A stretch of 34,808 nt of DNA from Thermodesulfobacteriota bacterium (GTDB lineage Bacteria; Desulfobacterota; Thermodesulfobacteria; Thermodesulfobacteriales; Thermodesulfobacteriaceae): positions 1 to 34,808 of the forward strand of contig JAUQPD010000019.1 of the NCBI GenBank assembly GCA_030550555.1, read 5' to 3'. Shown piece after piece: positions 18,980 to 34,808 of the stretch (the first letter of the stretch is position 1; each line of letters starts with the position of its first letter). The translations under genes were made by a program, and so were the position numbers. The notes beneath the pieces were generated by a model, which searched no databases, was not told where the DNA came from, and worked only from the letters and a program-made list of their open reading frames with translations.

Positions 18980-19009
18980 TATTTCAAATTGATACCTGGA
19001 AATAATAAC

Positions 19010-20335
19010 ATGAAAGGAAAAATTCTTACAGCAGACTGGGTGATCTGTTCAGCAGAGCATCCACCAATACGTGAAGGAGCTATTCTCATAGAGGGCTCAA
19101 AGATAATTGAGGTCGGGCCCCAATCTCAGATATTAGCAAAATACAGACACTATCCGATTGTCCCGCTAACCGAAAGACTGATCATTCCAGGACTTGTCAA
19201 TGCTCACACGCACGCACCAATGAGTATCCTCCGCGGAGTCGCAGAGGATTTACCTCTTATGACATGGTTAACTAAATATATTTTTCCGGTTGAGAGTCAG
19301 CTAAGGAGGGAGTGGGTCTACTGGGGGACAAAGCTTTCTCTTCTTGAAATGATTAGATCGGGAATCACTCTTTTTTGCGATATGTATCTTTTTGAACCAG
19401 AGGTTATAAGAGCCACAGAGGAGACAGGGCTAAAGGCCCTTTTAGGGGAAGGACTTTTTGACTTTCCTTCACCAGGGTATGGCCCTTTGGAGAAAGGCTT
19501 AAAACTCACTGAGGAATTATTAGATGCCTTTCAGAATCACAAGAAGATCAAAATTGCAGTATCTCCCCATACACTTTATACCTGTAGTCCTGATACAATT
19601 AAAAAGTGTATAAAAATTGCAGAGAAGTATTCTGCCCAAATACACATTCACCTTGCGGAAAATAGGGAAGAGATTGAGGAGATATACAGGCGCTATGGAA
19701 AAAGGCCTGTGCAACTTCTAGATGAATTGGGAGGGTTAAGGGAGAACCTTCTTGCGGTTCACTGTGTAAAACTTACGAATGAGGAAATTGAACAACTTGC
19801 CAAGAAGGGTGTCAAAATAGCTCACTGTCCTGAGAGTAATTTAAAACTTGGATCGGGCATTGCACCTTTGACTGAAATGTTAAAGGCAGGGTTGATTGTG
19901 GGTATTGGAACTGATGGTCCTGCAAGTAACAATGATTTGGATCTTTTTTCTGAGATGCGAACCGCAACGCTTATTCAAAAAGGTCTCAAGGAGGATCCTA
20001 CAGTAGTTACCGCAAAAGAGGTCTTTGCCATGGCAACAGAGTGGGGTGCTAAAGCTCTCGGTTTTAGGGACTCAGGCAAATTACTTCCTGGTTATAGAGC
20101 AGATCTTGCGGTTCTTGACTTAAGACATCTTGCGCTTCAACCTGACTATAATCCTCTTGCTTTAGTTGTCTATAGTGCTAAAGCGGGTTATGTTTCTGAC
20201 CTAATGGTTGATGGAGAATTTATTATGAGAAATTATCAGATCCTTACTATAAAGGAATCTCTTGTAAAGGAGAGAATCGCCGAAATTAAAGAGGAAATTT
20301 TTCGCATCATTAAGAGTAATTTCACACCATCTTGA
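19010..20335 (+). CDS. mtaD: 5'-methylthioadenosine/S-adenosylhomocysteine deaminase
   Basis: Amidohydrolase of 441 residues from the ATG at 19010. Metal-binding H66 and H68 lie in VNAHTHAPMSILRGVAEDL, a stretch diagnostic for the MTA/SAH deaminase clade. Further ligands and active-site residues are in IHIHLAENREE, AVHCVKL and GTDGPASNNDLDLFSEM. It deaminates MTA and S-adenosylhomocysteine to the inosine forms, salvaging products of SAM use; in some organisms 5'-deoxyadenosine is also a substrate. An in-frame TTG at 18989 would add seven residues but lies only about 3 nt from the predicted transcription start. The C-terminal beta strands (GYRADLAVLDL) close the composite domain. Confidence 0.92.
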   Translation: MKGKILTADWVICSAEHPPIREGAILIEGSKIIEVGPQSQILAKYRHYPIVPLTERLIIPGLVNAHTHAPMSILRGVAEDLPLMTWLTKYIFPVESQLRREWVYWGTKLSLLEMIRSGITLFCDMYLFEPEVIRATEETGLKALLGEGLFDFPSPGYGPLEKGLKLTEELLDAFQNHKKIKIAVSPHTLYTCSPDTIKKCIKIAEKYSAQIHIHLAENREEIEEIYRRYGKRPVQLLDELGGLRENLLAVHCVKLTNEEIEQLAKKGVKIAHCPESNLKLGSGIAPLTEMLKAGLIVGIGTDGPASNNDLDLFSEMRTATLIQKGLKEDPTVVTAKEVFAMATEWGAKALGFRDSGKLLPGYRADLAVLDLRHLALQPDYNPLALVVYSAKAGYVSDLMVDGEFIMRNYQILTIKESLVKERIAEIKEEIFRIIKSNFTPS

Positions 20336-23606: not shown

Positions 23607-24271
23607 CCTTTTTTAACCTTCCATTCGGTGATTAAAAAATTATCAATAATGAAGTGTTTTTGTATTTCGAAGTGAAGGAGTCTTTTTAGGCTCTTGAAAC
23701 CTTCACCTCCAACGAGTGTAGGGACATTTTCTCCACCTATGACCACAGGAAGATGGATTAACCTTAACTCATCAATGAATCCAAGTCTGACAAATTCCCA
23801 GTTAATTGAAGCTCCCCCCTCAACCATGAGTCTTTTGATGCCCCTTTTATAGAGTTCTGGAAGTAAGATCTTAAAATCAACAAGGTCTTCCCCTGCGAAG
23901 ATGACTTCAGCTCCAAGAGCACGGATTTTTTCTATTCTCTCAGAAGGTGCTCTTTTAGTGGTTACTATTATTGTAGGGGCATCTGGAGAAAAAATGTTAG
24001 CATTATAGGGAACATTGGCAGTAGAACAAGGTATGATCCTAATGGGACTTTTTCCTTCTACGTATCTCACTGTAAGACTGGGATCATCAGTTCTTACAGT
24101 TTCACATCCAACCATGATCCCATCAACTTGAGCTCTAATACTGTGTAGATATTTGTATACCTCCTTGCTCATGAGACTCATTAATTCTTTAGAAGAGGCA
24201 CCTCTATAGAGAGTAAGTTTACCATCAAGGGTAACCTCAGAGACTATGATTACATAGGGCCTCTCACTCAT
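23594..24271 (-). CDS. Stand-alone RibD-type pyrimidine reductase (archaeal RIB7-like)
   Basis: 225 residues of the dihydrofolate reductase-like RibD C-terminal family, without the deaminase domain to which it is fused in most bacteria. The N-terminal PYVIIVSEVTLDGKLTL, the substrate loop MVGCETVRTDDPSLTVR and the LMVEGGASINWEFVRLGFIDEL stretch near residue 155 are typical. The archaeal homologue reduces 2,5-diamino-6-ribosylamino-pyrimidinone 5'-phosphate in riboflavin synthesis. Its start overlaps the end of the upstream phosphatidyltransferase gene by 8 bp, so the pair is likely one operon. Whether a separate deaminase exists elsewhere cannot be told. Confidence 0.88.
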   Translation of the reverse strand: MSERPYVIIVSEVTLDGKLTLYRGASSKELMSLMSKEVYKYLHSIRAQVDGIMVGCETVRTDDPSLTVRYVEGKSPIRIIPCSTANVPYNANIFSPDAPTIIVTTKRAPSERIEKIRALGAEVIFAGEDLVDFKILLPELYKRGIKRLMVEGGASINWEFVRLGFIDELRLIHLPVVIGGENVPTLVGGEGFKSLKRLLHFEIQKHFIIDNFLITEWKVKKGYSS

Positions 24272-24890
24272 CCTTCACCTTCCCGAAGTTTTTGTATAGA
24301 TAAATAAGTCTTAGTAAAAGCGAGATGCTTGAAAGTAGAGTTATAACTTTTATTCCAAGGGAAAGTCCTATTCCAATATGGGTCTTTTCCAGAATGGTAA
24401 AGACTGCCAGGGCAAAGTGAGTTTCAGGTCTGCCAAAAAATCCTACCCCTTCAAGTGGATCTGTTATCTTCCCCTTAAGCTTTACCTCATAGCCAATCTC
24501 TGCATAGACGACAGGTTTAATGAAGGAGTGGAGCATTGAGATAACAATAGCAAATATAGCCCATCCGGGCCCAGCAAAGACAAATCCCACTGTGCCAAGA
24601 ATGAGACCATCTACCCATTTATCTACAATCCAGTCATAAACCGCACCGAATTTTGTAGGTCTTTCTTGGAATCTGGCAACTTCTCCATCAAGCAAATCAA
24701 AAAGACCGGAAAGTAAAAGGAATAAAAGGGCAGTAAGAAGGTTTTCATTATAATAGGCTAAAGCTGATGCGGTTCCGCAAAGTAAAGCAAGAGAAGTTAG
24801 TATATTGGGAGTTATACCAATTTTTGAAATAACATAAGCAAGAGGAAGATAAAACCTACGAAAGAGATCTCTTCTAACAGTAAGATTCAT
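24264..24890 (-). CDS. CDP-alcohol phosphatidyltransferase family protein
   Basis: 208 residues, about five to six transmembrane helices. The signature is intact: D65-x2-D68-G69-x2-A72-R73-x8-G82-x3-D86-x3-D90 (GLFDLLDGEVARF...FGAVYDWIVDKW). The loop after helix four (YEVKLKGKITDPLEG) and the following sequence differ from the enzyme at 706-1305, so the two are not recent duplicates. The acceptor alcohol cannot be assigned: phospholipid head-group transfer or a thermophile solute pathway are both possible. The upstream promoter places the predicted transcription start at the ATG itself, and no ribosome binding site is visible. Confidence 0.85.
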   Translation of the reverse strand: MNLTVRRDLFRRFYLPLAYVISKIGITPNILTSLALLCGTASALAYYNENLLTALLFLLLSGLFDLLDGEVARFQERPTKFGAVYDWIVDKWVDGLILGTVGFVFAGPGWAIFAIVISMLHSFIKPVVYAEIGYEVKLKGKITDPLEGVGFFGRPETHFALAVFTILEKTHIGIGLSLGIKVITLLSSISLLLRLIYLYKNFGKVKDE

Positions 24891-24897
24891 ATGTATT

Positions 24898-24926
24898 ATT
24901 TTACGGAAATATGTCTATGTTGTCAA
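24898..24926 (-). promoter_or_regulatory. Strong promoter giving a predicted leaderless mRNA for the phosphatidyltransferase gene
   Basis: Minus strand: perfect TTGACA (24926-24921), exactly 17 bp, then TAAAAT (24903-24898). Only 7 nt separate the -10 from the ATG at 24890, so transcription should start at or next to the start codon. Confidence 0.72.
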
Positions 24927-24968
24927 GCAAAATTTCGCCTGCTTTTGTCAAGGCAGGTATTCTCCCAA

Positions 24969-24988
24969 AAACTCTATCTATAGAGTTT
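24969..24988. repeat. 20-bp palindrome in the 24891-25376 gap
   Basis: AAACTCTAT (24969-24977) and ATAGAGTTT (24980-24988) are perfect inverted repeats separated by 2 bp. The site lies about 45 bp upstream of the phosphatidyltransferase promoter. It could be a dimeric regulator site or part of the decayed region; nothing in the sequence decides between these. Confidence 0.5.
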
Positions 24989-25148
24989 GGTCGTTAATAG
25001 TTGTCTGACAGTTTCGATCCTTGATCCTCTTATCCCTTTGACCTTTGCTCTGAGAGGAGATGTCGATTTGCAGGCCTGTCAAGGAAGTAAGTCTAGTTGC
25101 AAGGATGATAGCCATCTAGAGTACCGAACAAGTCTTGACTGGATTTAA

Positions 25149-25319
25149 AAAACCTATTTTTTCTCTATCTGTTTAGCTATAGCCATGATGACTTTTGGGA
25201 AACAACATCCAGAAGTTGCTTTAGTAATAACGCTTGCCTTTGTTATTCAAGTTCAATCAGCTGCATGGTATGTTAGGTTTTCTGATAAAATTTTTGGACC
25301 GCCCATAAAAGCACAATAA
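25149..25319 (+). pseudogene. Remnant of a membrane transporter C-terminus (possibly bile-acid:sodium symporter/ACR3-like)
   Basis: The 24891-25376 gap holds no intact gene. From 25149 to the TAA at 25317-25319 one frame encodes about 56 residues that look like the end of a polytopic membrane protein: SICLAIAMMTFGKQHPEV, then ALVITLAFVIQVQSAAWYV and a short polar tail. The pattern of a small-residue helix, a loop with PEVAL and a last helix recalls the BASS/ACR3 carriers, at low to moderate confidence. An in-frame stop lies just upstream at 25146-25148. Protein-like fragments continue upstream in other frames (for example DPLIPLTFALRGDVDLQAC at about 25027-25083), which fits a gene broken by several frameshifts. 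The two ATGs at about 25183 have no ribosome binding site. Confidence 0.5.
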
Positions 25320-25342
25320 CACTTCAAATTCTACATCTTGTC

Positions 25343-25370
25343 TTGTCTTTGAGAAGTTTTAGTTTATAAT
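25343..25370 (+). promoter_or_regulatory. Promoter giving a predicted leaderless lysA mRNA
   Basis: TTGTCT (25343-25348), a 16-bp spacer, and a perfect TATAAT (25365-25370). The lysA ATG starts 6 nt after the -10 box, so the transcript should begin at or beside the A of the ATG. The GAGG at 25371-25374 is too close to the ATG to act as a ribosome binding site. Confidence 0.65.
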
Positions 25371-25376
25371 GAGGCC

Positions 25377-26639
25377 ATGCACTATTTCGTGTATCATAGT
25401 GGGGAACTTTATTGTGAAAGTTTGCCGATCAGAGTCCTTGTAGAAAAATTCGGAACTCCTCTGTATGTATATTCCGCAAAAACAATTAGAAGACACTTTA
25501 GAGTCTTTGATTCTGCCTTTTCTGAGATTGATCATCTAACCTGCTATTCAGTAAAGGCAAATTCCAATATTGGGATTCTTGCTCTCCTAGCACAAGAAGG
25601 TGCTGGGGCTGACATAGTGTCAGGAGGAGAGCTTTATAGGGCTATAAAAGCAGGAATACCTCCTAAAAAAATCGTTTTCTCTGGAGTAGGTAAGACCCCA
25701 GAAGAAATAGAGTTTGCCCTTAAGGAGAGAATACTCTTATTCAATGTTGAAAGTGGACAAGAACTAGAGACTCTTGGCGAGATTGCAAAGAGGTTAAAGA
25801 TTAGGGCTCCCTTTGCTTTAAGAGCCAATCCAGATGTTGATCCTAAGACCCATCCCTATATTTCAACTGGACTTCGCAAGAATAAATTTGGAGTTCCTGA
25901 AGAGGAGGTTATACCTCTCTATCTCAAGGCAAAGGAAAATCCTTATCTTGAACCACTTGGTATAGATGCTCACATTGGGTCTCAATTAACAACGGTATCT
26001 CCTTTCGTGGATGCCTTAAAAAGGCTTAGAAAACTTTGGGAAGAGCTTACATCTCTTGGTTTTGAGTTGAGGTATATTGACATCGGCGGTGGACTAGGTA
26101 TACCTTATGAAAATGAAGAACCCCCCCTTCCTGATGATTACTCAAAGGCAATCTTGGAAGTATTGAAGGGGCTTCCGGTGAGTTTAATATTGGAGCCAGG
26201 GAGAGTGATTGTAGGAAATGCGGGAATTCTTGTCACAAAAGTCCTCTATACGAAGTCCAATAGGGAAAAGAATTTTATCATAGTTGATGCAGGTATGAAT
26301 GACCTCATAAGACCTGCTCTTTATCAGGCCTACCACAAGATAATACCAGTTGTTGATAGAGAGGAAGAGGAGATTGTTGCTGATGTCGTTGGACCAGTAT
26401 GTGAGAGTGGAGACTTCTTTGCAAGGGATAGGAAAATCAAAAGAGTTAGACAGGGAGATCTTCTTGCAATTATGAGTGCTGGAGCCTATGGTTTTGTTAT
26501 GAGTTCTAATTACAACTCAAGATTGAGACCTGCAGAGGTTCTCGTTGATGGCGATCAATTTTTCCTAATAAGGAAAAGAGAAACCCTTGATGATTTAATA
26601 AGATTAGAGGAGATACCTGAATTTTACAGAACTCAATAG
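25377..26639 (+). CDS. lysA: Diaminopimelate decarboxylase
   Basis: 420 residues, PLP-dependent fold III decarboxylase that makes lysine from meso-diaminopimelate. The PLP lysine is in TCYSVKANSN near residue 60. GIDAHIGSQL near residue 200, the phosphate-binding YIDIGGGLGIPY near residue 239, EPGRVIVGNAG near residue 277 and the dimer-partner motif GPVCESGDFFARDR near residue 343 are all present. The start follows directly from the promoter and probably lacks a leader. queA begins immediately after the stop codon, so lysA, queA and perhaps the nuclease gene form one transcription unit. Confidence 0.96.
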   Translation: MHYFVYHSGELYCESLPIRVLVEKFGTPLYVYSAKTIRRHFRVFDSAFSEIDHLTCYSVKANSNIGILALLAQEGAGADIVSGGELYRAIKAGIPPKKIVFSGVGKTPEEIEFALKERILLFNVESGQELETLGEIAKRLKIRAPFALRANPDVDPKTHPYISTGLRKNKFGVPEEEVIPLYLKAKENPYLEPLGIDAHIGSQLTTVSPFVDALKRLRKLWEELTSLGFELRYIDIGGGLGIPYENEEPPLPDDYSKAILEVLKGLPVSLILEPGRVIVGNAGILVTKVLYTKSNREKNFIIVDAGMNDLIRPALYQAYHKIIPVVDREEEEIVADVVGPVCESGDFFARDRKIKRVRQGDLLAIMSAGAYGFVMSSNYNSRLRPAEVLVDGDQFFLIRKRETLDDLIRLEEIPEFYRTQ

Positions 26640-27717: not shown

Positions 27718-29707
<1,990 letters not shown>

Positions 29708-29710
29708 CTA

Positions 29711-29738
29711 AGAATAACCAATAGCTTCCAAATTGCAA
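29711..29738 (-). promoter_or_regulatory. Weak candidate promoter of serS with leaderless spacing
   Basis: TTGCAA, 16 bp, TATTCT on the minus strand, with 6 nt between the -10 box and the ATG at 29704. Both boxes are imperfect, so this is supported mainly by its spacing matching the other leaderless candidates. Confidence 0.35.
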
Positions 29739-34159: not shown

Positions 34160-34435
34160 CTAATATCTAATTGAAAAATCTTTAAATTCTCCTCTATAAG
34201 GCTCTTCCTCCACTTCTACGGAAGTTACTTTAGATGAGGGAGAACCGCGATGGCACCACTTAATCATTTCCTCAACTGCCTCAGCAGGCCCCTCAAAGAG
34301 AGCTTCCACCCTCCCATCAGGGAGATTCCGAACCCATCCCTTTATTCCAAGTTTATCTGCCTCTTCCTTAGTGTAGGCCCTAAAAAATACTCCCTGAACT
34401 TTCCCAGAAATGTAAACCCTTACCCTCCTCATCAT
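34160..34435 (-). CDS. acyP: Acylphosphatase
   Basis: 91 residues, full length. The catalytic R19 (QGVFFRAYT) and N37 (GWVRNLPDG) of the acylphosphatase fold are both present, with the usual VRVYISGKVQGV start. It hydrolyses acyl phosphates such as acetyl or carbamoyl phosphate. The start is either 34435 or the next codon, also ATG. No ribosome binding site lies upstream, and a strong promoter ends 7 nt before the first ATG, so the mRNA is predicted to be leaderless. It is the first gene of the acyP-peptidase-comF run. Confidence 0.94.
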   Translation of the reverse strand: MMRRVRVYISGKVQGVFFRAYTKEEADKLGIKGWVRNLPDGRVEALFEGPAEAVEEMIKWCHRGSPSSKVTSVEVEEEPYRGEFKDFSIRY

Positions 34436-34442
34436 ATTTATT

Positions 34443-34471
34443 TTTATACCACTTTCTTATTTCCAAGTCAA
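34443..34471 (-). promoter_or_regulatory. Strong promoter giving a predicted leaderless acyP mRNA
   Basis: Minus strand: TTGACT (34471-34466), exactly 17 bp, TATAAA (34448-34443). Seven nucleotides separate the -10 from the ATG at 34435. Confidence 0.72.
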
Positions 34472-34616: not shown

Positions 34617-34808
34617 CTATTTTATAAAATTTAATAAACCGATAAGTATACTCAAAATAGTAAAACCAACACCAACAAACCATTGCATATGATTAAAACG
34701 TTTCTCCAAGGCCTCAAAACGTGTGTTCATTTCTTTTTGCAGTGCCTCAAAGCGTGTGTTCATTTCCTTTTGCAATGCCTCAAAGCGTGTGTTCATTTCC
34801 CTTTGCAG
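34617..34808 (-). CDS. Coiled-coil protein with 11-residue repeats and a C-terminal membrane anchor (right-truncated)
   Basis: The minus-strand frame is open from the window edge to the TAG at 34619-34617, giving the last 63 residues of a protein whose start lies outside. Three consecutive 11-residue units (LQREMNTRFEA, then LQKEMNTRFEA twice) are followed by a degenerate unit LEKRFNHMQ and a transmembrane helix (about 20 residues, WFVGVGFTILSILIGLLNF) with a short IK tail. Hydrophobic residues at unit positions 1, 5 and 9 follow 4-4-3 spacing, the hendecad pattern of a right-handed or straight coiled coil. Similar short anchored coiled-coil proteins occur in thermophiles, but I know no function for them. 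Confidence 0.85.
   Translation of the reverse strand: MQREMNTRFEALQKEMNTRFEALQKEMNTRFEALEKRFNHMQWFVGVGFTILSILIGLLNFIK
34710..34808 (-). repeat. Three 33-bp in-frame tandem repeats
   Basis: Units at 34808-34776, 34775-34743 and 34742-34710 are nearly identical in DNA as well as protein, differing at a few positions only. They continue to the window edge, so the full copy number is unknown. High DNA identity implies recent duplication or recombination. Confidence 0.9.

Follow-up and report, generated by a model that had tools for sequence, protein, structure and literature searches.

Promoters next to the start codons of four genes

The window, a stretch of 34,808 nt from a bacterium of the Thermodesulfobacteriaceae (Thermodesulfobacteriota), makes up one contig of its 1.709-Mb genome. 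Within it, four genes have a sigma70-like promoter immediately upstream of their start codon, which is ATG in all four. The original prediction had placed the end of the −10 box 7 nt (pgsA-like gene), 6 nt (lysA), 7 nt (acyP) and, as a weaker case, 6 nt (serS) before the ATG. Direct reading and scoring of the sequence returned the same distances, together with a −35-like hexamer 16–17 nt upstream of each −10 box, and we confirm the observation.

The pgsA-like gene (24264..24890, minus strand, ATG at 24890), a predicted leaderless gene for a CDP-alcohol phosphatidyltransferase (Pfam PF01066), is preceded by TTGACA-17 nt-TAAAAT (24898..24926, minus strand; 7 nt to the ATG, score 13.3) and shows no Shine-Dalgarno (SD) match. 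Divergently oriented and separated from it by a 486-nt intergenic region lies lysA (25377..26639, plus strand), also predicted leaderless. It encodes a member of the diaminopimelate decarboxylase family (PF02784/PF00278) that, among the named records found, is closest to that of Thermodesulfobacterium thermophilum (69% identity), followed by Thermosulfurimonas dismutans, which places the genome in or near the Thermodesulfobacteriaceae. Its promoter (TTGTCT-16 nt-TATAAT; 25343..25370, plus strand; score 9.9) ends 6 nt before the ATG, and a GAGG only 2 nt from the ATG is too close for use as an SD.

The predicted leaderless serS (28415..29704, minus strand, ATG at 29704), assigned by Pfam to seryl-tRNA synthetase, has the weakest of the four promoters (TTGCAA-16 nt-TATTCT; 29711..29738, minus strand; 6 nt to the ATG, score about 7). 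Its ATG lies 46 nt past the end of an upstream ORF on the same strand, with the promoter inside this gap, and serS may also be read through from the upstream gene as a longer mRNA. Finally, acyP (34160..34435, minus strand, ATG at 34435; acylphosphatase, PF00708) follows TTGACT-17 nt-TATAAA (34443..34471, minus strand; score 8.6), with 7 nt between this promoter and the first ATG of a pair; the predicted leaderless message would begin with AUGAUG. Because its −10 box, without the last T, falls under the −10 cut-off, acyP is absent from the automatic counts given below. An AGGAGG occurs inside the acyP coding sequence, with no in-frame start close after it.

That the four genes have no usable SD, as originally claimed, held for 4/4, each with a match of at most 3 bases. 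The anti-SD of the same genome is intact (16S rRNA 3′ end: GGATCACCTCCTTT). Clear SDs had been described for other genes of the window, which we found for glnA and acsA (both AGGAGGT) and for the gltB parts (AAGGAGG, GGAG and AAGGAGG). The hydrogenase small subunit, listed with them, has GGGGGGT only, an SD through G·U pairing that our scan scores as ‘no SD’; the large subunit has AGGAGG. A search for rpsA, the sole translation factor sought, yielded a single S1-like match that was nearly full-length and, at 405.9 bits, stayed below the curated cut-off (577), and an Rfam scan of the window gave no matches.

The promoters could also be explained if the starts were misassigned, with transcription from these ATGs and translation from a downstream SD-led codon. 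Judged by coding score alone, the start of lysA would be GTG 25389 and that of acyP its second ATG. We nevertheless consider this very improbable: SD-led orthologues of lysA and serS in other families start at the same ATG, neither the pgsA-like gene nor acyP has an in-frame SD-led start near its N-terminus, and 11/11 close homologues of the pgsA-like protein align from residue 1.

Three further features of the window were recorded. The region 25164-25319 holds a remnant of an ACR3-like transporter (arsenite efflux family); over its C-terminal stretch it shares 83% identity with the end of an ORF in the relative G001. There, the ACR3-like ORF is intact and lies directly upstream of lysA, and its protein matches TIGR00832 (acr3) below the curated cut-off; no other part of the gene was found in our window. 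The minus strand at 34690-34808, which is the end of the contig and lies upstream of acyP, carries short coding repeats in tandem (GAAATGAACACACGCTTTGAGGC...). At 18989 (plus strand) lies the TTG start of an amidohydrolase ORF; a good promoter stops 9 nt short of this codon, and the same promoter is 30 nt from a second possible start, the ATG at 19010.

The 6–7 nt spacing in the genome and its relatives

From the host genome we sampled 634,679 bases (37% of the genome), taken as stretches; comparison samples comprised 400 kb from each of five relatives (G001, G010, G021, G019 and G015) and 250 kb of E. coli K-12. Genes and their starts were called with our own simple hexamer-based finder, which left 2/529 called genes without a usable start. 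Sigma70-like promoters were scored for each spacing using E. coli base frequencies. The SD scan ignores G·U pairs, so the ‘no SD’ class includes some weak SD genes. Since a −10 box ending 6–7 nt before the ATG (gap 6–7) excludes an SD, all ATG genes were tested together.

The anticipated genome-wide excess of this spacing was found. A gap 6–7 promoter precedes 16 of the 441 ATG genes sampled, against about 4.4 expected from the other spacings (p = 1.4e-5), while 40 shuffles gave a mean of 3.2 and a maximum of 7 at this gap. The test was run under three start-choice rules, and the excess was kept under the other two (16/503 and 13/363). By chance, about 1% of ATG-started genes (2 × 2.18 of 441) would have such a promoter, so that about 0.3 would be expected among the 30 genes of the window, compared with the four described.

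Four of the five relatives share the peak: 17/283 ATG genes in G001 (p = 3e-10), 9/281 in G021 (p = 0.001), 12/247 in G019 (p = 9e-4) and 13/280 in G010 (p = 0.016), the significance in G021 being lost under the coding-score start rule (5/225, p = 0.10). The peak lacks significance in G015, which belongs to the family and has 30% GC (5/319, p = 0.14), and E. coli K-12 shows none (1/180). Among SD-less ATG genes only, the counts at gap 6–7, with the mean per position at other gaps in brackets, are 15/185 (1.41) for the host, 14/101 (0.65) for G001, 10/77 (1.24) for G010, 9/112 (0.53) for G021, 9/74 (0.82) for G019, 4/157 (1.18) for G015 and 1/58 (0.24) for E. coli.

An alternative is that transcription truly starts further upstream, that these genes have unstructured leaders without an SD, and that chance in an AT-rich genome has placed −10-like boxes close to the ATG. 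The GC content of 0.395 is compatible with this, as is the finding that 170/185 SD-less ATG genes of the host have no gap 6–7 promoter (threshold 6); by this test most SD-less genes here are not leaderless, and other SD-less initiation may therefore exist too. However, accidents would not peak at exactly 6–7 nt, nor would they disappear at internal ATGs, where we found no peak (14/2214), or persist in orthologues with a drifted spacer, and we regard this explanation as unlikely for the four genes. SD-less genes with a non-ATG start have such promoters in 2/55 cases.

When the −10 box is scored alone, the signal is concentrated among SD-less genes with at least 40 nt upstream or a divergent neighbour. 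Of these roomy genes, 18/90 in the host have the box at gap 6–7, against 4.3 expected, and the corresponding figures are 13/50 in G001, 16/45 in G010, 11/63 in G021 and 7/39 in G019; G015 shows no excess (4/77 versus 4.6 expected). SD-less host genes with less upstream room have it in 7/95 cases, where 2.4 are expected. This last figure, like the position of serS so close behind its neighbour, would fit mixed use in single genes, notably serS, with a leaderless mRNA made alongside a longer one from an upstream promoter or by read-through. Such mixed use, which is compatible with leaderless initiation at the same ATG, is a possibility that we hold tentatively; against it stands the divergent arrangement of lysA and the pgsA-like gene around their shared intergenic region.

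Whole-genome pattern counts were also made. The pattern TTGAC-N16-20-TANNNT-gap-ATG gave no excess in the host genome (15 at gaps 6–7 versus 16 at 10–11); over 31 genomes it occurred 399 times at gaps 6–7 versus 239 times at 10–11, with 6–7 ahead in 27/31. The pattern TATAAT-N0-30-ATG was too loose for use.

A relaxed threshold yielded 23 candidates in the host sample, several of which will therefore be chance matches. All were scanned with Pfam, and 20/23 had a match. They include genes for amino-acid and isoprenoid biosynthesis, tRNA modification, seryl-tRNA synthetase, transporters, a sigma-54-type regulator, a PilZ protein and an AAA-ATPase/PD-(D/E)XK protein. The suggestion that leaderless mRNAs serve housekeeping genes holds only in part: the set is mixed, and the regulator, the multicopy AAA-ATPase/PD-(D/E)XK gene, the transporters and the PilZ protein stand next to biosynthetic and tRNA enzymes.

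Two observations concern individual candidate genes. A multicopy AAA-ATPase_like/PDDEXK_9 family has a −10 box 6–7 nt before the ATG in 5/5 copies seen, one in L162 (18259-19812) and four in G001 (L146, L135, L145 and L144). Pfam was run on the L162 copy, whose N-terminus the others share, and the four G001 matches are not independent, being paralogous members of a single family that resemble each other upstream. An inverted repeat, TTGACANNTGTCAA, is conserved in two species (L112:15776-15821 and L134:15252-15297) at a sigma-54-activator gene of leaderless type, where it overlaps the −35 box and may be an operator.

Initiation mode among orthologues

For lysA, 28/30 loci were used, two distant paralogues (L279 and L280) being left out; for serS, 27/30 were used, leaving out L107, in which the match starts at residue 29, and L110 and L111, which are not serS. 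A gap 6–7 promoter combined with an SD match of at most 3 bases was found for lysA in 7/28 sequences, six from the host's own genus (g1, including the host) and one from its sister genus (g2); these are all the sequences from the two genera that yielded a locus. The remaining lysA sequences have an SD match of at least 4 bases in 21/21 cases.

In serS, gap 6–7 is kept in 9/27 sequences, counting the host and G005, where it belongs to the weaker of two candidates. Stronger versions of the promoter, with TTGACA, occur at this gap among the orthologues. In two of the nine there is, in addition, an SD-like match of 4 bases at a distance of 10 nt; it would lie outside the predicted transcript, 5′ of its start. 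An SD match of at least 4 bases is present in 16 of the remaining 18 sequences, and the other two have only GGT in a G-rich stretch. Almost nothing of the sequence between the −35 and −10 boxes is conserved, while the distance to the ATG is kept.

The two forms can occur within one genus: in g6, two species have a leaderless-type serS and two an SD-led one, and the best −10 box of lysA in two g6 species is at distances of 25 and 30 nt, with an SD next to it. For acyP, two short stretches from a pattern count put the −10 box at 8 nt from the first ATG in G002 and at 13 nt in G004; in the family member G010 an SD is present. The only pgsA-like orthologue read, from G015, has a −10-like box about 10 nt away.

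Across 118 reciprocal-best pairs between the host and G001, both genes are leaderless-type in 5, only the host gene in 2, only the G001 gene in 3 and neither in 108 (Fisher p = 6.4e-6). For G021, both are leaderless-type in 2/62 pairs (p = 0.005). No agreement beyond chance was seen with G010 (1/84, p = 0.26), G015 (0/101, p = 1) or G019 (0/68, p = 1). We give even odds to the idea that single genes of the Thermodesulfobacteriaceae readily change their initiation mode in evolution, with one and the same ATG of lysA or serS having a promoter 6–7 nt away in some species and an SD leader in their near relatives, as though ~20 nt of leader had been added or removed between −10 box and ATG.

Probable leaderless initiation beside SD-led initiation

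The explanation that we prefer, at a probability of roughly 0.87, is that ordinary sigma70-type promoters at the ATG of lysA, serS, the pgsA-like gene and acyP give rise to leaderless mRNAs that are translated by a leaderless route, beside SD initiation. Transcription would begin from a promoter whose −10 box ends 6–7 nt before the ATG. In E. coli, RNA polymerase normally starts 6–8 nt downstream of the −10 box; by this distance the A of the ATG would be at or within one or two nt of +1, and the predicted mRNA would have no 5′ leader, starting at or next to the ATG. As SD pairing is unusable on such a message, the ribosome would have to recognise a 5′-terminal AUG. A leaderless route via 70S or initiator-tRNA-loaded ribosomes is established in other systems, and by analogy the AUG may be read in this way. 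The rest of the genome would use SD initiation with its intact anti-SD. The spacing excess and its retention in orthologues support well, at the level of sequence, the earlier proposal of two initiation modes in one genome: SD-less genes with a promoter at the ATG, an intact anti-SD and differences between orthologues together suggest that the modes coexist and that genes switch between them.

These sites probably belong to the leaderless class described by Zheng et al. 2011 (PMC3160421), whose text reports TA-led (leaderless) genes in 207/953 bacterial genomes. Like those, they combine a −10-like TANNNT box some 12 bp ahead of the start with the lack of an SD, the presence of SD-led genes alongside and a change of mode between orthologues, which that text already describes in Actinobacteria. 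The share here, a few percent by the strict test, is far lower than that paper's values of around 20% for Actinobacteria and around 40% for Deinococcus-Thermus, and the −35 box is often near consensus here. The −10 motif of Deinococcus-Thermus (PMC12340547) is similar in that a box just before the ORF serves as the promoter of leaderless genes, with classical RBS genes alongside; it is found there at about 30% of ORFs and was reporter-tested. The leaderless class of GeneMarkS-2 (Lomsadze et al. 2018, as cited in PMC9581028), in which 21.6% of bacterial species are predicted to use leaderless transcription, likewise comprises genomes with both leaderless and SD-led genes, and the Thermodesulfobacteriaceae lineage may already be in its species table. 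The main texts of Zheng et al. 2011 and of the Deinococcus-Thermus paper contain no word beginning with Thermodesulf, and in the open-licence literature, survey species tables aside, we found no earlier report of leaderless genes in this lineage, Caldimicrobium and Thermodesulfobacterium included.

Our reading would add an anaerobic thermophilic lineage to those with leaderless and SD-led initiation side by side, and the conservation test frees it from dependence on gene-start annotation alone. Automatic annotation may misplace the starts of such genes. Of specialist interest is the apparent switching of single genes between a promoter at the ATG and an SD leader inside one genus; the leaderless and SD-led forms of one gene found there would be natural pairs for testing the benefits of a leaderless message.
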